Shown: in pieces, positions 46,022 to 63,609 of the stretch
Position numbering within the stretch: the first letter of the stretch is position 1
Layout: each line of letters begins with the position of its first letter
Source of the DNA: Pacificispira spongiicola
GTDB taxonomy: Bacteria > Pseudomonadota > Alphaproteobacteria > UBA8366 > Aestuariispiraceae
Assembly (NCBI RefSeq): GCF_012926505.1
Contig: NZ_JABBNT010000004.1
Coordinates: forward strand, 124,001-188,000
Reading direction: 5' to 3'
Length of the DNA: 64,000 nt
Program-made: the position numbers and the translations under genes
The notes under the pieces: generated by a model
What the model saw: only the letters and a program-made list of their open reading frames with translations
What the model was told of the DNA's origin: nothing
Databases searched by the model: none

Positions 46022-46954
46022 ATGACAACATCGGCAAATACGGTCGGTCGCCGGGTCAGGGTTATCCCTCGTCTGGATATCAAGGGACCGAATGTCGTGA
46101 AGGGCATTTGCTTCGACGGCCAGCGGGCCCTGGGGCTTCCCAAAGATTTCGCGGAAACCTATTCGGCTGCCGGCGCCGACGAAATTATTCTTTACGATAC
46201 GTTTGCCAGCCTGCTGCATCGCCCGGCCGGACTTTCCGTCATTGCGGAAGTCGCAGACCGCATCAGTGTGCCGCTGACCGTCGCGGGCGGATTGCGGACC
46301 ATCGATGAGATTCGAAAGGTCCTGCGGGCAGGCGCCGATAAGGTGGCCATCAACACGGCGGCATTGCACGATCCCGACCTGTTGCGCCAGGCATCGGAAG
46401 TGTTCGGAACGCAATGCATCGTAGCCTCCGTCGAATATCATCAACAGTTTGGCGGCCGTCGGGAAATCCGGTCGGAATACGGGCGAGAACCGCACCCGAT
46501 GGACGCGGAAGACTGGATCGGATCCGTCCTTGAAAAGGGAGTCGGTGAAATCATGATCACCGCGATCGACCGTGACGGGTTGGGGCTGGGTGCCGATTTG
46601 GATTTCGTCCGGCGTTTGCAGCGTTACGTTCCCGTCCCGCTGATCGTCGGTGGCGGTGTCGGTACGGTGGAGCATTTTGTCGATGCCGCGCAGGCCGGGG
46701 CCGATGCCGTCGCGGCCGCGTCCGTCTTTCATTATGCCCAGTGGGCGCCGATCGACAAAAAATACCTGCAATGGGATGAAAAGTCGTTGCGGATTGGCGC
46801 ACCTGTCGATGCCGGCAATATCGATTTCCTGAACGGTGGATACGGCGGCTTCCGCGATGTACCGGTAACGCCGTGTCATCTGTCGGATGTGAAAGCCGCC
46901 CTGTCCGCCGCCGGGATCGGGACGCGCCTCGTCAATTCGGGAGCCGCGGCATGA
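46022..46954 (+). CDS. HisF-like cyclase subunit for acetamidino modification
   Basis: The 310-residue TIM-barrel protein is HisF-like: VIPRLDIKGPNVVKGI, PLTVAGGLRTIDEIRKVLRAGADKVAINT and ITAIDRDGLGLGADLDFVRR. It lies with a HisH-like glutaminase and a WbpG-like amidotransferase, not with histidine genes. It is the HisF2/WbuZ type thought to channel ammonia for converting an N-acetyl to an acetamidino group. It is about 55 residues longer than canonical HisF at the C-terminus (TPCHLSDVKAALSAAG). Confidence 0.88.
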   Translation: MTTSANTVGRRVRVIPRLDIKGPNVVKGICFDGQRALGLPKDFAETYSAAGADEIILYDTFASLLHRPAGLSVIAEVADRISVPLTVAGGLRTIDEIRKVLRAGADKVAINTAALHDPDLLRQASEVFGTQCIVASVEYHQQFGGRREIRSEYGREPHPMDAEDWIGSVLEKGVGEIMITAIDRDGLGLGADLDFVRRLQRYVPVPLIVGGGVGTVEHFVDAAQAGADAVAAASVFHYAQWAPIDKKYLQWDEKSLRIGAPVDAGNIDFLNGGYGGFRDVPVTPCHLSDVKAALSAAGIGTRLVNSGAAA

Positions 46955-47613
46955 CCCAAAGCAAAAACGTCGTTATCGTCGACTATCGCGTCGGCAATAC
47001 CCACAGCCTGGAACGGAGCTTGAAGCGGTGCGGCCTATCGCCGGTGATTACGTCCGATCCTGCCGTGATCGAGCAGGCGGACGGGGTGCTGATGCCCGGC
47101 GTCGGCGCCTTTGGGCCCGCCATGGAATCGCTGATGGAAACCGGGGCATCGGCGGCGATCCGGCGGTTTGTCGACTCTGGCCGCCCGGTTCTTGCGATAT
47201 GCCTCGGCATGCAATTGTTGGCCGATGAAGGCGAGGAAGGCGGACATCACCGCGGATTGAGCATTATTCCCGGCCGGGTCCGACGGTTGGCACCGCCCCA
47301 GGAACATTCGAAGATTCCGCAAATCGCCTGGAACGAAATCATGCCGGTCGCGGATGATTGGCGGGAAACCGTGTTGGACGGTTTGCAAGGACGTCAAATG
47401 TATTTCTTGCATTCCTACGTAGTCGACCCGGCCCGCCCGGAAGACCGGGTCGCCGAAACCGATTATATGGGCGATTGCTTTTGTGCGGCGTATCGCTCCG
47501 CCAATGTTCACGGCGTGCAGTTCCACCCGGAACTCAGCGCGGAAGCGGGGCAAGCGGTGTTCCGCAATTTCGTTCGGTTGATCGACGAAACCGCACAAAA
47601 GAACGATATCTGA
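46951..47613 (+). CDS. HisH-like glutamine amidotransferase for acetamidino modification
   Basis: The 220-residue class I glutaminase has the nucleophile Cys84 in AICLGMQLLADEG and the His/Glu pair in HGVQFHPELSAE. It makes ammonia from glutamine and passes it through HisF2. The ATG overlaps the hisF-like stop (ATGA at 46951-46954), as expected for a two-subunit complex. An upstream in-frame extension to 46873 is rejected because it lies inside the previous gene. Confidence 0.9.
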   Translation: MTQSKNVVIVDYRVGNTHSLERSLKRCGLSPVITSDPAVIEQADGVLMPGVGAFGPAMESLMETGASAAIRRFVDSGRPVLAICLGMQLLADEGEEGGHHRGLSIIPGRVRRLAPPQEHSKIPQIAWNEIMPVADDWRETVLDGLQGRQMYFLHSYVVDPARPEDRVAETDYMGDCFCAAYRSANVHGVQFHPELSAEAGQAVFRNFVRLIDETAQKNDI

Positions 47614-47625
47614 GGAGCCGAAGAA

Positions 47626-48813
47626 ATGGCATTGAACCTCGACAAACAAATGCCCGACCTGCCGAAGGAGGTCGTGTATTGCAAGAATTGTGTGACGTCG
47701 AACCAAAGACCGCGCATCCGCTTCAACGAACAGGGTGTGTGCTCCGCTTGCGAATACGCCTATGAGAAAGACCATGTCATAGACTGGGCGGCGCGCGAAC
47801 GTGAACTTCAGGAACTTTGCGACCGTCATCGCAGTAAGGACGGCTCCTACGATGTCGTCGTTCCGGGCAGCGGTGGGAAAGACAGCGCTTTCGTCGCCCA
47901 CCAGCTCAAAACGCGGTATGGGATGCACCCGCTGTGTGTGACCTGGGCCCCGTTCGAACATACCGATATCGGATGGTACAATCTTCAGGCCTTCGTGCGC
48001 ACCGGGTTCCCGAACATCATGGCCATGCCGGACGGTGCCGTGCACAGAAAGCTCTGCCGTTTGGCTTTCGAACTGATCGGCGATCCGTTTCTGCCGTTTA
48101 TCTTCGGCCAAAAGGCTTACGCCTATCACGTCGCCCTTCAGCATGACATCAAGCTGATGTTCTACGGCGAAAACGGTGAAGTCGAATATGGCGGTTCGGA
48201 AAAGTACAAATACGTACCCAAAGAGGGCCCCGACGACTGGGAGGCGCAGTATTTCAAAGGAACTTCCGTCGACGAATTGATGAAAGTCGGTATTGAGCGG
48301 GGTATCTTCTCGCCGGACGAAGTCTCCCCGAAGTCATTGTGGTGGTATAAGCCGCCGCATCCGGACTTGATTAAGGACGCCGGTTTGGAAATGCACTGGA
48401 TGTCCTATTATCAAAAATGGATTCCGCAGGAAAATTTCTACTACGCCTCTACGCATACCGGGTTCGTGCCGAACAATGTCGGGCGTTCGGAAGGAACGTA
48501 TACGCGGCATTCCAGCCTCGACGATAAGGTCGACGGGTTCCACTATTACCTGGCTTTCATCAAATTCGGACTTGGACGGACGACCCGCGACTGCATGACC
48601 GATATCTATCGCGGACATTTGACGCGCGACGAGGCCGTGTCCCTTGTGCACCGTTTCGACGGTGAGTTCCCGGCAGAGCATTACGAACACTTCAAAGAAT
48701 ATCTGGGCATCACGGACGAGCAGTTCTGGGAAGTGATCAATGCCTATCGCGCGATCTCCAACGTTTGGGAAGAGGTCGACGGCGAATGGAAGCTGAAGGT
48801 TCAGGTATCCTGA
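47626..48813 (+). CDS. N-acetyl sugar amidotransferase (WbpG/PtmG/PseA type)
   Basis: The 395-residue PP-loop enzyme has the motif GSGGKDS (81-87) that activates the substrate with ATP, and two CxxC pairs (Cys19/22, Cys39/42) that likely bind zinc. With the HisH2/HisF2 glutaminase it turns an N-acetyl group into an acetamidino group on an LPS or flagellar sugar. PtmG/PseA do this on legionaminic or pseudaminic acid in Campylobacter. It follows hisH2 by 12 bases with a GAGGAG site. Confidence 0.93.
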   Translation: MALNLDKQMPDLPKEVVYCKNCVTSNQRPRIRFNEQGVCSACEYAYEKDHVIDWAARERELQELCDRHRSKDGSYDVVVPGSGGKDSAFVAHQLKTRYGMHPLCVTWAPFEHTDIGWYNLQAFVRTGFPNIMAMPDGAVHRKLCRLAFELIGDPFLPFIFGQKAYAYHVALQHDIKLMFYGENGEVEYGGSEKYKYVPKEGPDDWEAQYFKGTSVDELMKVGIERGIFSPDEVSPKSLWWYKPPHPDLIKDAGLEMHWMSYYQKWIPQENFYYASTHTGFVPNNVGRSEGTYTRHSSLDDKVDGFHYYLAFIKFGLGRTTRDCMTDIYRGHLTRDEAVSLVHRFDGEFPAEHYEHFKEYLGITDEQFWEVINAYRAISNVWEEVDGEWKLKVQVS

Positions 48814-48815
48814 CC

Positions 48816-49565
48816 GTGACGACCAAAAACGGCAGTCTCGGCGTCATCGTGGCGCGCGGCGGCTCGAAGCGGGTACCGCGTAAGATTCTGCGTGAGGTCG
48901 CCGGCCATCCAGTCATCGCATGGATGGTTCGGGCGGCTTTGAACAGTCGCCTCGACCGCGTGATCGTGTCGACCGAGGATGCCGAGATCGCTGAGATTGC
49001 CCGCCGATACGGGGCGGAGGTTCCGTTTTTACGGCCGGTCGAATTGGCCGAGGATACGGTGCGGAACGACGCGGTTTTGCTGCATGCGCTGGGTAGGGCG
49101 GAGGAAGTCGGGGGGCGTTACGATACGGTGGTCCTGTTGCAATCCGCCGCGCCGTTTACCCAGCCGGAAGACATTGACCGATGTGTCGAGACCTTGGCGT
49201 CGTCGGACGCGAACTGCGTGTTTGCGGTCAGGCCGGTAAAGGAGCAGCCGACATGGATGTTTCGGCGCGGTCCGGACGGGGCGGCGGTTCGGTTCTTGGG
49301 CGGGGATTTGATCGGCAAGGAACAGCTTACCCAAGGGAACGAGGCGCTGTTCCTTCCGGCGGGTTCTGTTTGGGCCATTCGGACGGCCGCGCTACGGGCG
49401 CACCAAGCCGTCTATGCCGCGCCAGTTCAAATTGTAGAAGTGCCGTTCGAACATGCTGTCGATCTGGACGATGAGATAGATTTTGACGTCGCGACCGCCG
49501 TTGCGGCGCGGCACTCCATCGCGTTATGGCCGCTTCCCGGCGCGCGCGGTGACGATCAGGACTAA
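48816..49565 (+). CDS. Acylneuraminate cytidylyltransferase family protein (PseF-like)
   Basis: The 249-residue protein has the CMP-sugar synthetase P-loop-like motif IVARGGSKRVPRKIL, then ALNSRLDRVIVSTEDAEIAEIARRYGAEVPFLRP, a pattern closer to PseF-type pseudaminate cytidylyltransferases than to LegF. The normal Asn of KNI in the first motif is Ile here (RKIL). The GTG start at 48816 is chosen just after the previous stop; ATG at 48786 is an alternative with overlap. A second, LegF-type, CMP transferase lies at 62908. Confidence 0.85.
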   Translation: MTTKNGSLGVIVARGGSKRVPRKILREVAGHPVIAWMVRAALNSRLDRVIVSTEDAEIAEIARRYGAEVPFLRPVELAEDTVRNDAVLLHALGRAEEVGGRYDTVVLLQSAAPFTQPEDIDRCVETLASSDANCVFAVRPVKEQPTWMFRRGPDGAAVRFLGGDLIGKEQLTQGNEALFLPAGSVWAIRTAALRAHQAVYAAPVQIVEVPFEHAVDLDDEIDFDVATAVAARHSIALWPLPGARGDDQD

Positions 49566-49577
49566 TGGGAGAAGTGT

Positions 49578-50633
49578 GTGAAACGCGTCAATGATTGCGC
49601 CTTTTTGATCTGCGCGGCGGACAGCACGATCCGAGATGCAATTCGGCGGGTCGACGGATCGACGCCGCTGCTGTTCCAAATTGTCGTCGATACGGGCGGC
49701 AAAGTCGTTGGGTCCATTACCGATGGCGATATTCGCCGCGGCTTCGCCCGGGGTTTGCGACTGGAGGATTCCGTTCGGAAATGCATGCATACCCCGCCGG
49801 TGGTAGGACGTATCGGCGATACGGTTCGGAATGCGGAATTACTGCATGGTCGCCGGTTTCTACCCATATGCGACGCGCGTGGCGTGCTTGACCATGTCAT
49901 TGTGGAACATATCGGCCCACGCCGTGTCGAGCGGGCGCTTATCATGGCGGGCGGGTTTGGTACGCGTCTCGGCGAGCGCACAAAAACGACGCCGAAGCCG
50001 CTTCTGCCTGTCGGGGGAAAGCCCATCCTGGAACATATCCTCGCCCGCCTGGAGGAATATGGAATCCAGAAGGTGGAAATTTCCGTTCACTACTTGGCGG
50101 AGCAGATTCAGGATTTCGTCACGAAGCGGAACAACAATTGCGATATCGAACTGGTTCGCGAAACCGAACCGCTGGGCACGGCGGGCAGCCTTTCCCTGAT
50201 TGGTAAACCGACGATAGAACCGATCCTCGTGATGAATGCGGACGTCCTGACCGACGTTGATTTCGGCGCGATGGTGGAACATCACGCGCGTGTCGATTGT
50301 GACGGCACCATCGCGGCGCATCGCTTCGAATATCAGGTTCCTTACGGCGTCCTGCGGTTCGACGACTCCGATATTCTCCAAGGGATCGACGAAAAGCCGA
50401 CCTACTACCATCTGGTCTCTGCCGGAATCTATTATCTGGACCCGGTGATCGTGGGGATGGTTCCGAAAGGGCGGCGCATGGATGTCCCGGAACTACTGGA
50501 ACTGGCGACGGCGAGCGGCTGTCGTCTGTCGGTGTTTCCGGTCCACGAATATTGGTCGGATGTAGGCCAACCGAAGGACCTGGATGCCGCCGGCGATCGT
50601 CTTCGGCGTCAGGCGGAAGGGACCAAATCCTGA
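49578..50633 (+). CDS. CBS-domain sugar nucleotidyltransferase (PtmE-like)
   Basis: The 351-residue protein has two N-terminal CBS motifs (about 8-115, with GSITDGDIRRGFARG). A nucleotidyltransferase domain follows (ALIMAGGFGTRLGERTKTTPKPLLPVGGKPILEHI), ending with the metal site MNADVLTDVDF. This CBS-plus-NTP-transferase layout is that of Campylobacter PtmE, which makes GDP-glucosamine for legionaminic acid. It is therefore the likely first committed step here. Confidence 0.88.
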   Translation: MKRVNDCAFLICAADSTIRDAIRRVDGSTPLLFQIVVDTGGKVVGSITDGDIRRGFARGLRLEDSVRKCMHTPPVVGRIGDTVRNAELLHGRRFLPICDARGVLDHVIVEHIGPRRVERALIMAGGFGTRLGERTKTTPKPLLPVGGKPILEHILARLEEYGIQKVEISVHYLAEQIQDFVTKRNNNCDIELVRETEPLGTAGSLSLIGKPTIEPILVMNADVLTDVDFGAMVEHHARVDCDGTIAAHRFEYQVPYGVLRFDDSDILQGIDEKPTYYHLVSAGIYYLDPVIVGMVPKGRRMDVPELLELATASGCRLSVFPVHEYWSDVGQPKDLDAAGDRLRRQAEGTKS

Positions 50634-54426: not shown

Positions 54427-55299
54427 ATGGCCAAGAATGCTGCAGCGAAGCCCGTACCGAAGGAAACGTCCTACGAATACGGCGCGAAATCCCAGGAAAA
54501 GATGCTGAAAAAGTATCTCAATCGGGCGAACAATCATTGGAGTGAGCGCATTCAATGCGCAAAGGATTTGTTGGAAAGCTATGCGCGGCCGCATTTGGGT
54601 GGACGCGAAAACGCTGACATTTTCGTCGTTGACGTCGGATGTAGCGTCGGGACATTCGCGCTGGAATTCTCTCGAGACGGGTTCAGGACCGTTGGTGTCG
54701 ATTTCGATAAAGCCGCCGTTGCGATCGCCGAGGACCTCGCAAAGCAGGACTCTCTCGGGGCGACGTTCCGTTGTATGGATCTGGCCGATTGGCAGGGTAA
54801 CGATCTTCCGGCCATCGATGTCGCCGTTTGCTTCGATATCTTCGAACATTTGCACGATGACGAGATCGGCGCGTTAATGCTGTCGCTGCGTCGCGCGATG
54901 GCGCCAAACGGACGGATGATCTTTTCGACAACCCCGACGCAGTACAGCTATCTGTGGTCCGGCGCGGGCATGCGCGTGAAGGTCACTCGTTTCCTAGCGT
55001 ACAGTATGCGGTGGCTGTCTCGCGGTGCATATGAAAAGTGGATCATGTTGCTGGATGCCTTGGTGAATATCGCGATGATCCTGAAATATGGAAAGACACG
55101 GACGCAGCTTCTCAAGCGCGATAAGCATTGTAATACGCTTACGCTAGAACGGGTCCGGGACATCCTGTTACGGGCGAATTGGCAGGTCGACGCCATTGAG
55201 ACATGCAACCTGCATCGGGAACGGTTCCACCATTTGAAAAAGCTCGAACGTCATCCGATCACCCACACCCATATCCTGGGAGCTGCGACCCCGAAATGA
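54427..55299 (+). CDS. Class I SAM-dependent methyltransferase
   Basis: The 290-residue enzyme has motif I VVDVGCSVGTFALEFSRDG, the acidic loop VGVDFDKAAVAIAEDLAK and motif VAVCFDIFEHLHDDEIGALML. It likely methylates a sugar of the glycan. Its stop overlaps the LegC gene start (ATGA). The exact target is unknown. Confidence 0.9.
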   Translation: MAKNAAAKPVPKETSYEYGAKSQEKMLKKYLNRANNHWSERIQCAKDLLESYARPHLGGRENADIFVVDVGCSVGTFALEFSRDGFRTVGVDFDKAAVAIAEDLAKQDSLGATFRCMDLADWQGNDLPAIDVAVCFDIFEHLHDDEIGALMLSLRRAMAPNGRMIFSTTPTQYSYLWSGAGMRVKVTRFLAYSMRWLSRGAYEKWIMLLDALVNIAMILKYGKTRTQLLKRDKHCNTLTLERVRDILLRANWQVDAIETCNLHRERFHHLKKLERHPITHTHILGAATPK

Positions 55300-56516
55300 A
55301 CGCAAAGAGTCACAGCGCATCCGGCGCCGTGAGCCACGGCATTTCGGTCGAAGCGGCGCAATGGGCGTCTGTTGTGAAACAGGCGGTTCGATCTGTGATC
55401 GGCGATCCGTCAGGAGCCCCGATCGCCTTGCACGAGCCGGAATTCGGCGAGGCGGAGCGTCGATATGTCGATGATTGTGTGACCAGCGGTTGGGTGTCGT
55501 CCGTCGGCTCCTATGTCGATCGGTTCGAGGCGATGCTGCGCGAGATGACCGGGGCGGCGGGCGCTGTGGCCGTCGTCAACGGGACCGCGGCATTGCATGT
55601 CTGTCTTCGCTTGGTCGGCGTGCAAGCGGGGGACGAGGTATTGGTGCCGTCCCTGACCTTCATCGCCACGGCGAATGCCGTTGCCTACCAAGGCGCGATT
55701 CCACATTTCGTCGATTCCGATCCCGAACGGTTGGCGGTCGACCCGGTCAAACTGTCTGCGCATCTGGCGCGGGTCGGGGTCCGGAAACCGGACGGCCTGT
55801 ACAACCGCGAAACGGGCCGTCGCGTCGCGGCATTGATGGTAATGCATGTCTTCGGTCTGCCCGCGGATATGGATGCGCTACAGGCGGTTGCGGACGATTT
55901 CGGAATTCCGTTGGTAGAAGATGCGGCGGAATCGCTGGGGTCGACGTATAAAGGCCGGGATTGTGGAACCTTCGGTCGAATTGCGGGATTGAGCTTCAAC
56001 GGCAATAAGATCGCGACGACCGGCGGCGGTGGCGCGATCCTGACCATGGACTCCGACCTCGCGGCGCGGGCAAAGCATCTGACGACGACGGCACGGGTGC
56101 CTGCGGGTTGGGACTTCGTCCATGACGAGATCGGCTACAATTACCGCATGCCCAATCTGAATGCCGCGCTCGGTTGTGCGCAAATGGAACGCGTTCCGGG
56201 CTTTGTCGAAGAAAAGAGGCGGCTTGCCGAGAACTATCGGCGGGCCTTCGCGGATACCGGCGTTCAGGTTTTGTGGGAACCTTCGGATGCGACAAGCAAT
56301 TATTGGCTCAACACGATATTCCTGCCGGATCGGGAAAGTCGCGATGCGGTGCTGACAGCGACGAACGATGCCGGTTTCATGACGCGCCCCTGTTGGACTC
56401 CGATGCATCGACTTCCCATGTTTGCGGATTGCCCGCGGGACGATTTGTCGGTGGTGGAGGATGCCGTGGCACGGATCGTCAATCTGCCGAGTTCTCCGAA
56501 GCTGGCCCGGATTTAA
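55296..56516 (+). CDS. LegC-family PLP-dependent aminotransferase
   Basis: The 406-residue DegT/DnrJ/EryC1-type enzyme has GWVSSVGSYVDRFE, AVVNGTAALHVCLRLVGVQAGDEV, PLVEDAAESLGSTYKG and the PLP-Lys motif LSFNGNKIATTGGGGAIL. It puts an amino group on a 4-keto nucleotide sugar, as LegC does in the legionaminic acid pathway. Its ATG overlaps the methyltransferase stop; a longer upstream reading is rejected. Confidence 0.9.
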   Translation: MNAKSHSASGAVSHGISVEAAQWASVVKQAVRSVIGDPSGAPIALHEPEFGEAERRYVDDCVTSGWVSSVGSYVDRFEAMLREMTGAAGAVAVVNGTAALHVCLRLVGVQAGDEVLVPSLTFIATANAVAYQGAIPHFVDSDPERLAVDPVKLSAHLARVGVRKPDGLYNRETGRRVAALMVMHVFGLPADMDALQAVADDFGIPLVEDAAESLGSTYKGRDCGTFGRIAGLSFNGNKIATTGGGGAILTMDSDLAARAKHLTTTARVPAGWDFVHDEIGYNYRMPNLNAALGCAQMERVPGFVEEKRRLAENYRRAFADTGVQVLWEPSDATSNYWLNTIFLPDRESRDAVLTATNDAGFMTRPCWTPMHRLPMFADCPRDDLSVVEDAVARIVNLPSSPKLARI

Positions 56517-56531
56517 CCGGGACGAAGGCGT

Positions 56532-57587
56532 ATGACTGTTCGGGTTCGATATGGCGGCGAACTGCCCGAAGGCGCGGACCCCCTTGCACGCGAGACGCGC
56601 TCTTGGGACTCGCGCGACCTTGGCTTTTCACATGGACGTGCGGCGTTTGCCTGGATTCTTGCCCAGGAACCGGAAATCGCTTGGGTCGCGCATTGCGCCT
56701 ATACCTGCCCCACCGTTCCGGCATTTTTCGATTCGCTCGGCGTGGCCTCGGTCGCTTTCGATGTGGGGGCATCGGCGGCGTCGATCCTGAACGGGATTAG
56801 GGATCGATCCGGGCGCGGCCTTGTCCTGATACCCGCCCTGTTCGGGCGCATGCCGTGGCTGAGCGATGCCGACATCGCACTGTTATCGGATGCAGGTCAT
56901 ACAGTTGTGATCGATGCGGCACAAACGGGCTTCGGCCATGAGGATATAGCGGTTCCCACAAGTGGTGCCGTTCTGTCCTGCCCGCGGAAGGCCTGCGCCT
57001 TGGGGGGTGGGGCAATTTTACGGTTGGGCGGTCCGATGTCCGGCGAGGAAATTGAGAAATTCATGGCGCTACCCGTCGAATTGGACGCGAGTACCGCGAA
57101 AAGAAGGGCGCGGCATTTGTTCGCATTGGGAAAAGAAGCGCCGGAAATGGAAGCGCTGACCTTTGTGCGGCAGTCTGAGGCCGGATGGCCCGCCCATGCC
57201 TGCCGTATGGACGACACCGACTGCAAGGCATTCCTGGCGCTGGACGCTGTCGAACACCGCCGCAGACGAATTGCGAATGCTGCACATCTGTCGGATCGCC
57301 TGAAGGACAGCGGCTTCGTCTTTCCGGATCGGCGAGCGGGGCAGGGCGGCGTGCCGTTCAATTTCCCGCTGTTGATGCCGTCCGGGACAAACCGGGCGGC
57401 TTTATTGGGCCGGTTGCGCGATCGGCGTGTCTTTGCAACGGCTCTTTGGTCGGATGCGGTAATCGATCGGCGGCGGCATCCCTTGGCCGATGCCTATAAG
57501 ACAGATCTGGTGGCGCTTCCGTTGGACCAGCGTTTCGGGCCGGAGGATATGGACGAGATCGCGGACAGGTTCCTGGCATGCATATAG
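56532..57587 (+). CDS. Degenerate PLP-aminotransferase-like protein
   Basis: The 351-residue protein has the fold pattern of DegT-type aminotransferases but is divergent. HTVVIDAAQTGFG holds a likely pyridine-binding Asp128, and LSCPRKACALGGGAILR holds the likely PLP Lys153. The remaining blocks do not match a known subfamily. It starts 15 bases after LegC and overlaps the next gene by ten bases. It may be a second sugar aminotransferase or a non-catalytic relative; the role is unknown. Confidence 0.75.
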   Translation: MTVRVRYGGELPEGADPLARETRSWDSRDLGFSHGRAAFAWILAQEPEIAWVAHCAYTCPTVPAFFDSLGVASVAFDVGASAASILNGIRDRSGRGLVLIPALFGRMPWLSDADIALLSDAGHTVVIDAAQTGFGHEDIAVPTSGAVLSCPRKACALGGGAILRLGGPMSGEEIEKFMALPVELDASTAKRRARHLFALGKEAPEMEALTFVRQSEAGWPAHACRMDDTDCKAFLALDAVEHRRRRIANAAHLSDRLKDSGFVFPDRRAGQGGVPFNFPLLMPSGTNRAALLGRLRDRRVFATALWSDAVIDRRRHPLADAYKTDLVALPLDQRFGPEDMDEIADRFLACI

Positions 57588-59047
57588 GTTTAACGCTCTA
57601 TGGTGCGACCCCTGAAGACGTCATGCAGGACGTCTATTTCCGGGAAGACTTCGCTGCGTTGCATGCCTATCCCGACGGAATCGATTCCTTGACCGTGGAC
57701 GGCTTCCGATGCGTATCCGCGGTGCGGAGTATCGAAGGCACACCGTATGAGGATATGGAAACGCCATGGGGATATGGCGGGCCGGTCGCGACCTCGGAAG
57801 GGGCGTTTTGGCGGGGTCTCGGCATGTGGCGGCAGCGTCAGGCGGATCATGGACGGGTTGCGGAATTCGTCCGGCTGCATCCGTTTTTAAATCCGGCGGC
57901 GCTGCGGGGATCGTTGGATCAAATCCGTTTTGACCGGCTGACGGTGCTGGTGGATCTGACCGAACCGGCGGAACAGCGCCGCGCCCGGTACAACAAGGGG
58001 ACACGCTATTCGTTGCGCAAGGCGGAACGGCAGCTTGAAATCCGTCAGATGGGCGCCGAAGACGGATCGCTTTTTCGCCGTCTGTATGATGTGGGCCTGA
58101 CGCGGAATGCGGCGCTCGACGGATATTACTTCTCGGACGATTATTTTACCCGCCTTCTTTCCGCGGATTGGGCGACGACATGGGTCGCCAGTCTGGACGG
58201 CGAACCGTGTGCGGTTGCCTGTTTCCTGCGCGGCGGGCCGTTTGCGCATTATCACCTGTCCGGTGGTACCGATGCCGCGCGTGACAGTTTCGCGCATTAT
58301 CTCTTGCTCGAAACGGCGTTCCGGCATTTCGCGGAGCGCGGTTGTCGTTGGATGCATCTGGGCGGCGGTCGGACCGCCGCACCGGACGACCAATTGCTTC
58401 ATTTCAAGTCGAAGTTCTCTCCGATCCTGATCCCTTTCTATACCGGCGGGATCGTCTTCGATCGCGCGACCTATACCGCCTTGTCGACCGGTGCGACCGA
58501 GCGGTTCTTGAGTTATCGGTTCACAAAACCGCAGGCGGCGCCGGAATTGCAGCCCAGCCTGCGGGTCGCCCGTCCCGAGGACTTTCAGGACTTCTTCCGG
58601 CTGAAATGCGATGTCGACAATGTCGTATGGTCGGGTGCCGTGAAACCGCCGGACTATACATTCATGGCGGATTGGTTCGCCCATGCGGTCGGCCCGGACA
58701 ACAACCGCACGATCCTGATCGCGGAAAGTCGTGGATCGGTCGTGGGATATGCCTATGTCGACGACACGGAAGACGGGGTCGTCGTCACGGTCGGCCTCGC
58801 GGCATCGGAAGCACAGCGCCAGGCGTTTCGACCGATCCTACGGCTGGTACTGGATTGGGTGTCGACGGAACGCGCCGGCCAGGATGTTCTTACTTGGCTT
58901 TACGATTCGAACCGGTTCCTGACCTCCGCTTTCGAAGCGGAGGGTTTTCAAGTCGATGCCGGTGTTCCAAAGCTGGACGTCTTCACGGCGGCCACGGGCG
59001 ATAACGAAAGTCAGCGGCGTTGGCGGCGTCCCGCCGAAGTAAGCTGA
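57578..59047 (+). CDS. FemAB-like / GNAT fusion acyltransferase
   Basis: The 489-residue protein has an N-terminal FemAB-like (GNAT-fold) domain (about 1-310), with RYNKGTRYSLRKAERQLEIR and the diagnostic HLGGGRTAAPDDQLLHFKSKFSP. A second, smaller GNAT-like domain follows (about 328-470, LRVARPEDFQDFFRLK and the later VVGYAYVDDTEDGVVVTVGLAASEA). FemAB proteins use aminoacyl-tRNA or acyl donors. In this cluster it could acylate an amino group of the nonulosonic acid. The overlap with the aminotransferase-like gene couples them. Confidence 0.8.
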   Translation: MHIGLTLYGATPEDVMQDVYFREDFAALHAYPDGIDSLTVDGFRCVSAVRSIEGTPYEDMETPWGYGGPVATSEGAFWRGLGMWRQRQADHGRVAEFVRLHPFLNPAALRGSLDQIRFDRLTVLVDLTEPAEQRRARYNKGTRYSLRKAERQLEIRQMGAEDGSLFRRLYDVGLTRNAALDGYYFSDDYFTRLLSADWATTWVASLDGEPCAVACFLRGGPFAHYHLSGGTDAARDSFAHYLLLETAFRHFAERGCRWMHLGGGRTAAPDDQLLHFKSKFSPILIPFYTGGIVFDRATYTALSTGATERFLSYRFTKPQAAPELQPSLRVARPEDFQDFFRLKCDVDNVVWSGAVKPPDYTFMADWFAHAVGPDNNRTILIAESRGSVVGYAYVDDTEDGVVVTVGLAASEAQRQAFRPILRLVLDWVSTERAGQDVLTWLYDSNRFLTSAFEAEGFQVDAGVPKLDVFTAATGDNESQRRWRRPAEVS

Positions 59048-59066
59048 TCGTGGGGAGAGTATGGCA

Positions 59067-60215
59067 ATGCATGTTTGTTTCGTGACGGGAACGCGCGCGG
59101 ATTACGGGCTATTGCAGCCTGTGATCGAAGCGACGCATCGTGATCCTTTCTTCCGCACATCCATCGTCGCGTCTTGCATGCATCTTTCCCCTGAATTCGG
59201 AATGACGGTTCAGGAGATCGAAGCGGACGGGTATACGGTTGATGCCCGCGTCGATATGTTGTTGTCGGGCGATAGTCGGATCGCCGTGGCAAAGTCGATG
59301 GGGATCGGAGTGCTCGGTTTCGCCGATGCCTTCGACCGGTTGAAGCCGGACTTGATCGTCCTGCTCGGCGATCGGTTCGAGGCTCTGGCGGCGGCGGAAA
59401 CCGCGCTGATATGCGGCATCCCGGTTGCGCATGTTTCCGGCGGCGACGTCACTTATGGCGCTTTTGACGATTCAATTCGCCATGCCATTACGAAGATGGC
59501 GCATTTGCATTTTGTCGCGTCTGAGGATGCGGCGGCGCGGGTGCGGCAGTTGGGGGAAGCCGACGACAGCGTCTTTGCCTATGGCGATCCCGGCCTGGAC
59601 CGCATGATGACGATGCAGCGGATGGGCCGGGACGAACTGGCCGAAAATCTGGGGATCGTCTTTCGCAAACACATGCTGCTTTTTACCTTTCATCCCGTGA
59701 CCGTGGATGCGATGCCGTCGCGCGACCAATTGGATGTCGTCCTGGGGGCCTTGGACGACCTGGGCGATGACTATGGGATCGTCATCACCATGCCGAACGC
59801 CGACCCCGAGGGCCGGGAATTGGCGAACAGGTTGCGGGACTATACGAGCAGCCGGGAAAACGTGGCGTGTTTCGCGTCGCTGGGCAGCAAGCGATATATC
59901 AGCCTGATGGCGGAAAGCGACGCGGTCGTGGGCAACTCGTCCAGCGGCCTGCTGGAAGCGCCGAGCTTCGGTAAGCCAACCGTGAATATCGGGGAACGGC
60001 AGGCCGGTCGTTTGCGCGCTGCTTCGGTGATCGACTGCCCGGTGGATCGGACCGCCATCGCAACCGCGATCCGGGGCGCGGTCGGTCGGGATTTCAAAGG
60101 GGTCGACAATCCCTATGGCGACGGCCATACAGCGGAAAAGATTATAGCCGAGTTGAAGCGGATCGACGACCCGCGTCGGCTGCTCAAGAAGATATTCGTG
60201 GATCGCGGACGCTAA
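59067..60215 (+). CDS. legG: Hydrolysing UDP/GDP-N-acetylglucosamine-type 2-epimerase (LegG/NeuC)
   Basis: The 382-residue GT-B-fold epimerase has FVTGTRADYGLLQPVIEA, LIVLLGDRFEALAAAETALICGIPVAHVSGGDVTYGAFDDSIRHAITKMAHLHF and GNSSSGLLEAPSFGKPTVNIG, all diagnostic of NeuC-like enzymes. It releases the nucleotide and epimerises C2 to give the 6-deoxy-ManNAc-type substrate for LegI. The start at 59067 has GGGGAG at the right distance; the ATG at 59061 is too close. Confidence 0.92.
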   Translation: MHVCFVTGTRADYGLLQPVIEATHRDPFFRTSIVASCMHLSPEFGMTVQEIEADGYTVDARVDMLLSGDSRIAVAKSMGIGVLGFADAFDRLKPDLIVLLGDRFEALAAAETALICGIPVAHVSGGDVTYGAFDDSIRHAITKMAHLHFVASEDAAARVRQLGEADDSVFAYGDPGLDRMMTMQRMGRDELAENLGIVFRKHMLLFTFHPVTVDAMPSRDQLDVVLGALDDLGDDYGIVITMPNADPEGRELANRLRDYTSSRENVACFASLGSKRYISLMAESDAVVGNSSSGLLEAPSFGKPTVNIGERQAGRLRAASVIDCPVDRTAIATAIRGAVGRDFKGVDNPYGDGHTAEKIIAELKRIDDPRRLLKKIFVDRGR

Positions 60216-60231: not shown

Positions 60232-61311
60232 ATGACCGAAACATGCTTTGTAATTGCCGAAGCCGGTGTGAATCACAATGGCTCGTTCGAGCGAGCGGCG
60301 GAACTCGTCGTCCAGGCGGCAAAGGCCGGTGCCGACGCGGTAAAGTTCCAGACGTTCAAGTCGGAATCCGTTGTCACGGCGAATGCGCGTAAGGCGGAGT
60401 ATCAAATCGCCAACACGCATGAAGAAGGCAATCAGATCGATATGATCCGTAAGCTCGAACTCAGCTTCGACGATTTCCGGCGTCTTGCCGCGCTGTCGGC
60501 GGACCATGGGATCGAATTCATGTCCACCGCCTTCGATCCGGATAGTCTGAATTTTCTGGTCACGGATATCGGCGTCAAGCGGTTGAAAATTCCGTCGGGC
60601 GAAATGACGAACGGGCCGTATCTTCTGTCCTGTGCACGTCACCGCCTGCCGATGATCGTTTCGACCGGGATGTGCAACCTGCAAGAGGTAGAGGCGGCAC
60701 TGGACGTGATCGCCTATGGCCTGACATGCGACGACATGCCGGACGGGATCGCGGCGGTTGCCGGCGCGTCGAAAACGACGGACGGCAAGGCGGCGTTGCA
60801 GCGTCTGGTCACGCTGCTTCATTGCACGACGGAATATCCGGCCCCGGTCGCTGACGTGAATTTGCGCGCGATGGATACCATGGCAGCCCATTTTGGCTTG
60901 CCCGCCGGTTATTCGGATCATACGCAGGGGATCGTCATTCCGGTGGCGGCCGTGGCCCGCGGTGCGGTCATGATCGAAAAGCACTTCACCCTGGATAGAT
61001 CACTGCCGGGACCGGATCACGCGGCGTCCTTGGAACCGAGTGAATTGGGCGAGATGGTAGCGGCGATCCGCATGGTAAATCTGTCTCTGGGCGATGGCCG
61101 GAAAGCGCCTGCGGAGTCCGAAAGAAAGAACATTCCGATTGCGCGCCGGTCTCTCGTCGCGGCGCGGCAAATCCGCAAGGGCGATGTCTTCACCGAAGAC
61201 ATGTTGTTTGCGAAACGTCCGGCGACGGGGCGCAGCCCGATGGTCTTTTGGGACGTCGTCGGCACGACGAGCAACCGGGATTATGACCCGGACGACCAGA
61301 TCGACGGATGA
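60232..61311 (+). CDS. legI: N-acetylneuraminate/legionaminate synthase (LegI/NeuB)
   Basis: The 359-residue TIM-barrel enzyme condenses a mannosamine-type sugar with PEP to make the nonulosonic acid. It has IAEAGVNHNGSFERAAELV, KFQTFK, TTEYP, GYSDHTQG and EKHFTLDRSLPGPDH, followed by a C-terminal SAF domain (RRSLVAARQIRKGDVFTEDMLF). Its stop overlaps the next start. It is the defining enzyme of the cluster. Leg versus Neu specificity rests on the neighbours. Confidence 0.94.
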   Translation: MTETCFVIAEAGVNHNGSFERAAELVVQAAKAGADAVKFQTFKSESVVTANARKAEYQIANTHEEGNQIDMIRKLELSFDDFRRLAALSADHGIEFMSTAFDPDSLNFLVTDIGVKRLKIPSGEMTNGPYLLSCARHRLPMIVSTGMCNLQEVEAALDVIAYGLTCDDMPDGIAAVAGASKTTDGKAALQRLVTLLHCTTEYPAPVADVNLRAMDTMAAHFGLPAGYSDHTQGIVIPVAAVARGAVMIEKHFTLDRSLPGPDHAASLEPSELGEMVAAIRMVNLSLGDGRKAPAESERKNIPIARRSLVAARQIRKGDVFTEDMLFAKRPATGRSPMVFWDVVGTTSNRDYDPDDQIDG

Positions 61312-61964
61312 TTTCTGCGATGCGTCGCGACCTCCCCATCATCCTGCTCGGCGCAGGCGGCCATGCCGGCGTTGTGTTGGATGCGCTACGCCTTTCAGGG
61401 TTCGATGTCGTCGGCGTCTGCGATCCTGTGCTGACGCCCGGCGATGCGGCGGGCCTCGGCCTGCCGGTTTTCGACGACGCCTCCCTGCCGACGCGATTCC
61501 CGGCGGAGGCCTGCCTGCTGGCGAACGGTGTCGGTAAAATGCCGGACCAGACGCGCCGTCGCGATCTCGCCGAGCGTATGGCCGGTCTCGGCTATTCCTT
61601 CGCGGCGGTTGTCCATCCCTCTGCCGTGATCGCCGGTACGGTGCGACTTGGTGACGGGGCACAGGTCATGGCCGGCGCGATCATTCAGAATGGCGCCGAG
61701 CTTGGCGACCACGCGATCGTGAATACCGGTGCGCGGATCGATCACGGCTGTAAAATCGGTCGTTATGTCCATATTTGCCCCGGTGCTATTTTGTCGGGCG
61801 ATGTCGTGGTCGGCGACGACGGATTCGTCGGTGCGGGGGCGGTGCTCGTTAACGGCGTCACTATCGGCGCGGGGGCGGTAATCGGGGCTGGCGCCGTCAT
61901 CACGGCCGATGTTCCCGCTGGCGCGCGAATTGTTACCCCGAGCAGCCGAGATTTGGCCAAATGA
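61308..61964 (+). CDS. Left-handed beta-helix acyltransferase (NeuD/PglD/LegH type)
   Basis: The 218-residue protein has a Rossmann-like N-terminal domain (ILLGAGGHAGVVLDALRLSGFDVVGVCD). Hexapeptide repeats follow (GTVRLGDGAQVMAGAIIQNGAELGDHAIVNTGARIDHGCKIG). The invariant His in NTGARIDHG is the catalytic base in PglD. It acetylates an amino group on the nucleotide sugar or nonulosonic acid. It overlaps legI by four bases. Confidence 0.9.
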   Translation: MISAMRRDLPIILLGAGGHAGVVLDALRLSGFDVVGVCDPVLTPGDAAGLGLPVFDDASLPTRFPAEACLLANGVGKMPDQTRRRDLAERMAGLGYSFAAVVHPSAVIAGTVRLGDGAQVMAGAIIQNGAELGDHAIVNTGARIDHGCKIGRYVHICPGAILSGDVVVGDDGFVGAGAVLVNGVTIGAGAVIGAGAVITADVPAGARIVTPSSRDLAK

Positions 61965-62911
61965 GCGTATCTAGCGGGCAAGCAGGCGATGCGATCGTGG
62001 TCGGCTTCGGGTCCATTGGGGCCCGGCATGCCGATGTGCTAGGCGGTCTCGGTTTCAATGTTTCCGTGGTCAGCCGCCGTTCGATATCGGAGTATCCGCG
62101 CTATTCGGATATCCGCAGCGCCATTGCCGATTATCCCGGTGCTTATATCGTCATCGCGACGGAAACGTCGGCTCATGGGGACGCGATCGCGGATCTTCAG
62201 GGGGCGGGCCACACGGGACGCGTTATGATCGAAAAGCCATTGTTCGGGGCTTTGTCAGACCTGCGTGGGGACGTGTCCGACGATCTGCGCAAACGGATAG
62301 CGGTCGGCTATAATCTGCGTTTTCATCCGCTGGTCGGGGCTTTGAAGGAACGATTGACCGGTCGCGCCGTGTTCCTCATCGAAGCGGCCGTTGGACAATA
62401 CCTTCCCGATTGGCGTCCGCAACGCGACTATCGGTCCGGATATTCGGCACGTCGCGCTGGCGGCGGCGGGGTCTTGCGCGATTTGAGTCACGAGATCGAC
62501 TATCTGCTGTGGCTGTTCGGCCCGTGGCGGCGCGTCGCCGCGCTGACGGGGACGACGGGTCAATTGGAAATCGATTCCGAGGATTATGCCTCAATTCTTG
62601 TAAAAGGTCGCGATTTTCCGGCGGCGACATTGGCGCTGGACTACCTGGATCGCGCGGTGCGGCGTTACGTGACGGTCCAACATGATGGTGGGACGACATG
62701 TCTGGACTTTGTCGCGGGGACGCTCACGGAAAACGGCGCCGTCGTGGCAGAGGCAAAGCCGGGCCGGAATGAAACCTATATCCGCCTCCATGAGGCGATG
62801 CGGCGCGGCGAGGAATCGGCGTTGTGTTCCTTCGATGAAGGGATGGATGTCTTGCGTATTATCGAAGCGGTGGAACGTGCCGCATCCACGGAGAGTTGGG
62901 CGACGGTATGA
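61961..62911 (+). CDS. Gfo/Idh/MocA-family oxidoreductase (PtmF-like)
   Basis: The 316-residue protein has IVVGFGSIGARHADVLGGLGFNVSVVSRR, the EKP motif (IEKPLFGAL) and GGGVLRDLSHEIDYLLWLFG typical of the family. Its place between the LegI/acetyltransferase genes and the LegF and SDR genes matches ptmF in Campylobacter. It overlaps both neighbours by four bases. The reaction is inferred from that context. Confidence 0.85.
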   Translation: MSVSSGQAGDAIVVGFGSIGARHADVLGGLGFNVSVVSRRSISEYPRYSDIRSAIADYPGAYIVIATETSAHGDAIADLQGAGHTGRVMIEKPLFGALSDLRGDVSDDLRKRIAVGYNLRFHPLVGALKERLTGRAVFLIEAAVGQYLPDWRPQRDYRSGYSARRAGGGGVLRDLSHEIDYLLWLFGPWRRVAALTGTTGQLEIDSEDYASILVKGRDFPAATLALDYLDRAVRRYVTVQHDGGTTCLDFVAGTLTENGAVVAEAKPGRNETYIRLHEAMRRGEESALCSFDEGMDVLRIIEAVERAASTESWATV

Positions 62912-63609
62912 AGCGGTTGTGTACGATTTGCGCCCGGGGAGGGTCGAAGGGCGTGCCCGGCAAGAATGTGCGGATGCTCCTGGGTAAACCGCTGATCGCG
63001 CATACTGTCGAACAGGCACGGGAAAGCGGGTTGTTCGACCATATAGCGGTCAGCAGCGATTCGGATGCGATCCTAAACGCGGCCCGCGATGCGGGTGCGG
63101 ACATACTGGTTCGGCGTCCGGACGAAATGGCTCTGGATACCTCCGCGAAGCTCCCGGCGATCCAGCATTGCGCGAAATCCGCGGAGGCGGAGACAGGGAT
63201 CGCCTACGACATTTTCTGTGACCTGGATGCCACCAGTCCGCTGCGCGATATCGCCGATATTCGTGGCGCGGTCGAGATGATGGAAGCCGGCGGTTGCGAT
63301 AACGTCATTACCGGTGCCCCGGCCCATCGCTCCCCCTATTTCAACTTGGTGGAGCGCGGATCCGACGGATTTGTCGGTGTCTGCAAGAAGCTGGACCGGG
63401 AATTGGTCCGCCGTCAGGACGCCCCGGCTTGCTTCGATTGCAACGCGTCGATCTATGTTTGGACGCGTCACAGCTTGTTTGAGGAGCCAAGCGTCCTGGG
63501 CGACCGAACCGCATTGTTCGAGATGCCGGAATCGCGATCGCGCGATATCGACAGCGAGTTGGACTTCGAAATCGTGGAATTTCTTATGCGCCGAAAGGAA
63601 CGGTCATGA
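62908..63609 (+). CDS. legF: CMP-legionaminic acid-type cytidylyltransferase (LegF/PtmB)
   Basis: The 233-residue enzyme has the family opening CTICARGGSKGVPGKNVRMLLGKPLIAHTVEQARESGLFDHIAVSSDSD with intact GKN residues, and FCDLDATSPLRD near 110. It activates the nonulosonic acid with CTP. The ATG at 62908 overlaps the previous stop; an upstream TTG/ATG extension is unnecessary. It differs clearly from the PseF-like copy at 48816. Confidence 0.9.
   Translation: MKRLCTICARGGSKGVPGKNVRMLLGKPLIAHTVEQARESGLFDHIAVSSDSDAILNAARDAGADILVRRPDEMALDTSAKLPAIQHCAKSAEAETGIAYDIFCDLDATSPLRDIADIRGAVEMMEAGGCDNVITGAPAHRSPYFNLVERGSDGFVGVCKKLDRELVRRQDAPACFDCNASIYVWTRHSLFEEPSVLGDRTALFEMPESRSRDIDSELDFEIVEFLMRRKERS

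Follow-up and report, generated by a model that had tools for sequence, protein, structure and literature searches.

A FemX-like fusion protein and a divergent PLP enzyme in a nonulosonic acid operon of Pacificispira spongiicola: a possible route to aminoacylated sugars

Introduction

What is the task of two genes that overlap by ten bases in the middle of a nonulosonic acid (NulO) operon? The window considered here, that is, the whole stretch of 64,000 nucleotides that was analysed (Pacificispira spongiicola, contig NZ_JABBNT010000004.1, positions 124,001 to 188,000), carries on its plus strand a gene for a pyridoxal 5'-phosphate (PLP) enzyme-like protein, which we call DegT2 (56532-57587), and a second gene (57578-59047) whose product joins a FemX-like domain to a C-terminal GNAT-like domain. 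A first-pass annotation, made from the letters alone, had placed both open reading frames (ORFs), with this overlap, in a NulO cluster, and the ORF coordinates and family matches bear this out. It had also called the first protein degenerate and had suggested that the two together could furnish the NulO with an uncommon N-acyl or aminoacyl group. Here we argue from sequence comparisons that the FemX domain could be an aminoacyltransferase acting on the 4-amino group made by LegC, with the GNAT domain capping the product and DegT2 tailoring it, an account that we hold to be plausible, if somewhat short of probable.

Results

The pair lies where LegH would be expected

LegC, DegT2, the fused gene, NeuC, NeuB, NeuD, a Gfo/Idh gene and a CMP-NulO synthetase gene form one tight run on the plus strand, in which neighbours are separated by 13-16 bases or overlap by 4-16 bases. 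The order LegC-DegT2-FemX/GNAT-NeuC-NeuB parallels the published pathway order, which the part of the source available to us gives as LegC-LegH-LegG-LegI (PMC6137143). In the window, as in genomes G602 and G747 (G denotes a genome and L a fetched locus; the window comes from G000), the FemX gene shares with LegH, the legionaminic acid N-acetyltransferase, a position with LegC before it and NeuC or NeuB after it; unlike LegH, the fused protein of the window has no match to NeuD or any other hexapeptide family in Pfam and NCBIfam scans.

The second gene begins with a FemX-like domain

Residues 142-284 of the fused protein match PF13480 (E=4.7e-11, the best Pfam match) and PF02388 (E=7.7e-7), and a profile built from eight relatives of the domain finds the Weissella FemX chains at E=1.9e-23 to 2e-22 (profile positions 57-323), as well as the aminoacyl-tRNA-dependent peptide synthase 9wqw (4.3e-11) and 6snr (1.5e-7). 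All solved chains found by this profile at E<=0.1, eight distinct sequences, are FemX-type or aminoacyl-tRNA-dependent. The FKSKF motif named in the first-pass annotation is present at residues 276-280 (58403-58417), and its Phe276-Lys277 pair aligns on Phe304-Lys305 of FemX (numbered by our own count), of which Lys305 is catalytic. All 17 sequences compared have Lys277 and nearly all have Phe276, and a basic segment (window residues 132-158), net positive in 16 of the 17 and zero in the remaining one, may correspond to the basic helix through which FemABX proteins are proposed to contact the acceptor stem of tRNA. Weissella viridescens FemX, the UDP-MurNAc-pentapeptide alanyltransferase of the FemABX family, is like the window domain in the profile match, the aligned Phe-Lys pair and perhaps the basic segment, and, if the substrate proposed below is right, also in acting on a soluble UDP-activated compound; it differs in its length (~335-343 residues), in being without an extra GNAT domain, in its peptidoglycan role and in its Arg211 (see Discussion). 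The NCBIfam FemX model gives the window protein 15.5 bits against a cut-off of 500. In a tree of 19 FemX rows, which left out L093 and L094, six NulO rows, six bacillosamine rows and L095 are grouped (99/99); the order within this group is not resolved, and the NulO rows are not recovered as a single clade.

DegT2 is a divergent rather than a dead enzyme, as judged by its residues

DegT2 falls under the threshold of Pfam DegT (18.4 bits, cut-off 19.8) and has no NCBIfam match at E<=0.01, and of five relatives compared with Pfam, L053 passes DegT, L012 passes Aminotran_5 and three are without a match at E<=0.01. Despite this, Lys153 and Asp128, the PLP residues to which the first-pass annotation had pointed, are invariant in all 13 family sequences (window included), as are Arg36, Phe104-Gly105, Gly160, Arg246, Asn249, Arg288, Leu295, Trp306, Asp332 and Arg334. 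Global hhalign of the DegT2 profile with 19 LegC/WbpE-type sequences covers 326 columns (probability 99.1, E=1.2e-17), and a residue-by-residue check of the alignment places Asp128 on the LegC Asp and Lys153 on the LegC Lys. Because the Lys and the Asp are invariant, the reading of DegT2 as a degenerate pseudo-enzyme can be dismissed, and its sequence argues for a divergent PLP (DegT-like) subfamily of full length.

What DegT2 shares with LegC/WbpE-type members of the DegT/DnrJ/EryC1/StrS aminotransferases is the full-length profile alignment, the Schiff-base Lys and the PLP Asp. It differs from them, besides its score under the Pfam cut-off, at two positions whose roles in DegT enzymes we take as given, namely the GT of SGTxAL, where Arg36 of DegT2 aligns with the Thr (GT to GR), and the Asn of GxNxR, which is missing in the window protein, as well as in a DQRY-type C-terminal motif; Asp332 and Arg334, moreover, face Ser and Lys in LegC and are not common to LegC. 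In a tree of 13 DegT2 rows the copies of the window and of G257 make their own long branch, and the NulO labels are no more clustered than in many random arrangements (192 of 500 shuffles matched their clustering). Directly upstream of the intact DegT2 gene of G257, a sequence similar to the beginning of DegT2 (L057:6600-6931) runs into a hexapeptide transferase gene; it looks like a truncated duplicate.

The pair, and often a triad, recur in glycan loci

The DegT2 profile matches 98 of 385 genomes of the class at E<=0.001, mostly weakly and partially, and these weak partial matches are probably ordinary DegT enzymes. Strong matches (E<1e-25, a limit picked after the list had been seen) occur in eight genomes, in seven of which (the window, G290, G351, G418, G257, G209 and G095) a FemAB-like gene adjoins DegT2 or lies within ~3 kb of it; if the window is left aside, the pairing holds in six of the seven genomes newly found by the DegT2 profile. 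The weakest FemX score among the seven paired genomes is 38 bits (G095), and in the sole exception, G402, the 13.5 kb examined contain no match to the FemX profile. Weaker DegT2 matches in G043, G345 and G394 (8.8e-22 to 7.7e-17) have an adjacent gene that is acetyltransferase-like by eye; the FemX profile gives these neighbours of weaker DegT2 genes no significant score (0.032 in L061, 9.5 in L062, no match in L060). Those three loci, where the DegT-like and acetyltransferase-like genes stand beside AMP-ligase or asparagine-synthase-like genes (L060:5891-8339, L061:5734-8077, L062:6874-9197), resemble exosortase (XrtA) clusters by eye.

A triad of DegT2, FemX and a separate GNAT is found in L014, L019, L021, L022, L053 and a Priestia plasmid, as judged by a GNAT profile built from five of these six GNATs, with Pfam PF13302 checked in L019 and L021. 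The triad GNAT of L055 scores weakly (50 bits), and DegT2 is without a separate GNAT over 40 bits in L012, L013, L111, L054, L058 and L059. A tblastn search of plasmids with the window DegT2 gave no match, though the Priestia plasmid has DegT2 by profile; such a search therefore misses distant relatives. Mirror-tree distances of DegT2 and FemX correlate (r=0.67, 13 loci, permutation p=0.0002), which we do not take as proof because shared ancestry can produce it. Most of the pair loci examined are glycan clusters, so among these loci the pair does not, as the first-pass annotation had allowed for, occur mostly outside such clusters. That it might be specific to NulO is ruled out, since bacillosamine-type, flagellin-linked and other contexts are common.

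FemX accompanies LegC, NeuB and NeuC elsewhere

The FemX profile matches 126 of the 385 class genomes at E<=0.001; the stricter limit of E<=1e-25 leaves 12. Four of the strongest 12 have NulO genes beside FemX, namely the window, G257, G271 (L094, with CMP-synthetase, NeuC, FemX and NeuB consecutive in a full NulO context) and G044 (L020, a short contig in which FemX adjoins NeuB), and two, G290 and G200, have LegC and a sugar transferase there. Another DegT-type aminotransferase lies near FemX in G374, G350 and G418. Outside the class, G602 (L110) and G747 (L111) show the order LegC-FemX-NeuB-NeuC. A methyltransferase gene lies between LegC and FemX in G602. Since this genome further carries a PIG-L gene and, as judged by eye, one that is formyltransferase-like, FemX is not its sole acyl-transfer candidate; in G747 FemX is the only recognised acyltransferase-type gene between LegB and PtmE. 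Bacillosamine-type loci, in which FemX is accompanied by LegC as well as an initiating sugar transferase, are found on Cetobacterium and Priestia plasmids, in two Roseburia metagenome-assembled genomes and in G290 and G200. In the Cetobacterium plasmid FemX is the sole acyltransferase from LegC to the first glycosyltransferase, an annotated 'acyltransferase family protein' lying 4 kb beyond, while the Roseburia loci carry extra ATP-grasp and DapB-like genes (Pfam scan for L012) that would suit longer peptide-like groups.

LegC is found at E<=1e-70 in 88 of the 385 class genomes, in 22 of them over the family cut-off. We surveyed the 40 loci (39 genomes) with the top LegC scores besides the window, that is, the 21 others over the cut-off and the next 19; several of these loci end at contig ends. 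LegC, NeuB and NeuC occur together in 20 of the 40, and NeuD over 40 bits (one-sequence NeuD profile) in 14 of these 20; among the six without NeuD, L117 has a GNAT-like and L113 a formyltransferase-like gene, by eye, so that in these two another acyltransferase takes up the slot.

A second FemAB context recurs. In G374, G350 and G123 (L096:6924-10251, L097:5013-8331, L098:6977-10415) a FemAB-like gene lies, by eye, beside formyltransferase-like and metallo-beta-lactamase-like genes, close to flagellin-like genes in G374. In G148 (L095:5560-8485, by eye) and an Azospirillum plasmid (L107:6045-8831, annotated) it adjoins a carbamoyltransferase-type gene, with radical SAM genes near.

The C-terminal GNAT domain and the fusion

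The fusion of FemAB and GNAT domains that the first-pass annotation had described holds well for the FemAB/GNAT region at residues 142-284 and less firmly for the C-terminus, which in the window matches PF13302 only at E=0.017, under the cut-off. Its homologue in G257 is over the cut-off (PF00583 E=8.7e-8, PF13302 E=1.9e-7), the whole fused proteins being 45% identical. Elsewhere the C-terminal 170 residues are seen only in G257, also in a NulO cluster. Against the PDB they give nothing at E<=0.01 with a two-row profile and a best E=0.23 with the single sequence. The fused profile finds five of 398 phylum genomes at E<=1e-15, window included, and the other four match the FemX part only; G257 is not among the matches listed for this search.

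Layout of the window

Table 1. Features of the NulO cluster in the window
Feature	Position	Strand	Remark
HisF-like, HisH-like (class-I glutamine amidotransferase) and WbuX N-acetyl sugar amidotransferase genes	46022..48813	+	
CMP-NulO synthetase 1, PseF-like	48765..49565	+	under PseF cut-off
PtmE-like CBS + nucleotidyltransferase	49578..50633	+	
LegC family aminotransferase	55203..56516	+	TIGR04181, 519 bits; start of listed ORF, true start probably further in
DegT2, divergent fold-type-I PLP enzyme, 351 residues	56532..57587	+	Asp128 = 56913-56915, Lys153 = 56988-56990
FemX-like aminoacyltransferase part of fused gene, ~residues 1-318	57578..58531	+	Phe276-Lys277 = 58403-58408
C-terminal GNAT-like domain of fused gene, ~residues 321-489, plus stop codon	58538..59047	+	CoA-loop motif appears eroded
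NeuC/LegG-type hydrolysing 2-epimerase	59061..60215	+	TIGR03568, 442 bits
NeuB/LegI-type NulO synthase	60232..61311	+	TIGR03569, 466 bits
NeuD-family hexapeptide acetyltransferase, alternative LegH candidate	61308..61964	+	TIGR03570, 198 bits
CMP-NulO synthetase 2, PseF-like	62896..63609	+	under PseF cut-off

The remaining features of the cluster are listed in Table 1, where PtmE is the name that we take to apply to the CBS and nucleotidyltransferase gene. The HisF-, HisH- and WbuX-type genes upstream would point to acetamidino-type chemistry. The presence of two PseF-like CMP-NulO synthetases in one cluster suggests two NulOs or two forms of one. A LegB-like dehydratase lies outside the window (L003:14397-15410), and WbpB/D/E-like genes lie downstream of the NulO operon, as does a 542-residue protein (L003:1415-3040) that has no Pfam match at E<=0.001. 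No tRNA genes were found in the window.

Discussion

The pathway that we propose would run as follows. The FemX domain would transfer an amino acid, probably derived from aminoacyl-tRNA, to the 4-amino group of the LegC product, a nucleotide-activated 4-amino-4,6-dideoxy sugar, instead of, or alongside, the acetyltransferase LegH, such that the finished nonulosonic acid would bear an aminoacyl amide at N-7. The new alpha-amino group would be capped by the fused GNAT domain, or by the separate GNAT in related loci, and DegT2 would work on the attached amino acid, its simplest role being that of an alpha-epimerase or another tailoring enzyme. Operon position, homology to FemX with its catalytic Lys, conserved PLP residues and conservation of the pair and triad are features of the sequences themselves; the donor, the acceptor, the capping by GNAT and the reaction of DegT2 we infer. 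As to the uncommon N-acyl or aminoacyl group suggested by the first-pass annotation, its chemistry gains from the FemX homology, from FemX among LegC, NeuB and NeuC genes elsewhere and from the retention of the pair in glycan loci, whereas the pair is not confined to NulO loci, and the PLP gene does not always accompany FemX.

Several observations weigh against this proposal. The NeuD protein of the window could be LegH, in which case FemX may act elsewhere, and in G039 (L019; order LegC, NeuB, NeuC, GNAT, DegT2, FemX) FemX lies outside the LegH slot, after a separate GNAT, which could itself be LegH, and DegT2. Of the 12 genomes with the strongest FemX matches, six (G148, G418, G374, G350, G351 and G123) have no NulO or LegC genes near it in the stretch examined, and FemX stands without DegT2, likewise in the stretch examined, in the Cetobacterium plasmid (L105), G602 (L110), G200 (L093), G271 (L094) and G044 (the short L020). 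None of the 40 other class LegC loci, some shortened by contig ends, has FemX over 40 bits, and because of this absence FemX at LegC loci is a rare option; G200 and G290, whose lower-scoring LegC loci lie outside the 40, do carry it, and the FemX contig of G271 is distinct from its two LegC contigs. The CoA (coenzyme A) loop of the window GNAT, for which we take Q/RxxGxG/A to be the motif, looks eroded, its glycines being missing by eye (L057 keeps one), and this domain could be inactive. The Phe-Lys pair may be general to the Acetyltransf_6/FemAB superfamily. Finally, as to the substrate pocket, on whose presence the first-pass annotation had made its suggestion depend, the FemX Lys/Phe pair and a basic segment are kept, whereas FemX Arg211, which we take to be a UDP-phosphate ligand, falls on a Tyr-rich stretch of the window protein and is not conserved; Arg211 is, however, a UDP-MurNAc trait of FemX and not of all FemABX proteins.

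Were the FemX-like domain an ordinary acyltransferase with acyl-CoA or some other thioester as its donor, it would place an acetyl, hydroxybutyryl or similar group on the 4-amino group. This would agree with PF13480 (Acetyltransf_6) as the top Pfam match, with the hexapeptide (NeuD) genes of other Leg clusters and with the GNAT-like and formyltransferase-like genes of L117 and L113, but it fits poorly with the eight solved sequences, all FemX-type or aminoacyl-tRNA-dependent, and with the retained Phe-Lys pair and basic segment, and we regard it as rather unlikely. DegT2, in turn, might be a second sugar aminotransferase that makes the amine for FemX, at another position or with the opposite C4 configuration, a possibility to which we assign a minor chance. 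The DegT-type profile speaks for it, and so do the solved relatives of DegT2 found by profile, which include QdtB and sugar or cyclitol aminotransferases. The Priestia locus (19 kb), on the other hand, has annotated, hypothetical genes apart, one sugar dehydratase, one LegC-like aminotransferase (385 bits, the LegC model cut-off being 420) and no second keto-sugar maker, and the change of GT to GR, the lost GxNxR Asn and the Asp332 and Arg334 that are invariant in DegT2 but not shared by LegC likewise argue against a second sugar aminotransferase.

There is also the possibility, which we consider doubtful, that NeuD is LegH and that DegT2 and FemX/GNAT modify either the finished NulO or another sugar of the cluster, e.g. 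a WbpB/D/E-type diamino sugar. NeuD is indeed present both in the window and in G257, and WbpB/D/E-like genes are found downstream; yet DegT2 and FemX-GNAT occupy precisely the interval from LegC to NeuC within a closely packed run, the sole acyltransferase recognised from LegB to PtmE in G747 is the FemX placed between LegC and NeuB, and in the Cetobacterium plasmid, too, FemX is alone up to the first glycosyltransferase.

Groups of the kind that our proposed pathway would produce are known. N-acetyl-D-alanyl, N-acetyl-L-alanyl and N-acetylglycyl amides occur on 4- or 3-amino sugars of several species, listed, in the part of the source available to us, on hexoses and not on NulOs (PMC3210612). 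They would fit the combination of FemX and GNAT, the D forms calling for a PLP epimerase in addition. In the type B flagellin of Clostridioides difficile glycine acylates the amino sugar Fuc3N, and a FemAB-like gene was named as candidate acyltransferase, of which the authors, by the portion of their reports at hand, could not obtain a mutant (PMC5207245, PMC5207246). That system (CDR20291_0244-0247), which we liken to ours by description and not by sequence, is similar in having a FemAB-like gene near an amino-sugar aminotransferase gene and amino acids amide-linked to the sugar; it differs in that the sugar is not a NulO and in its ATP-grasp and cyclodeaminase-like genes. In the open-licence PMC literature we found no paper demonstrating the genes that make amino-acid amides on bacterial amino sugars, and FemAB together with legionaminic only in the C. 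difficile flagellin paper.

A bolder extension, which we think improbable as it stands, is that DegT2, FemX and GNAT would constitute a pathway, unassigned in the papers that we found, for N-acetyl-D-aminoacyl amino sugars and NulOs, in which FemX would load the 4-amino sugar with an L-amino acid taken from its tRNA, DegT2, as a new PLP subfamily, would epimerise the residue on the sugar at its alpha carbon and the GNAT would acetylate the amine of that residue, with loci without DegT2 making L or glycyl forms.

DegT2 points to a PLP subfamily that is mostly uncalled by Pfam and NCBIfam. If the proposed pathway is true, the charged tRNAs of translation would feed surface-glycan diversity, and femX beside LegC, NeuB and NeuC would mark NulOs that bear amino acids.

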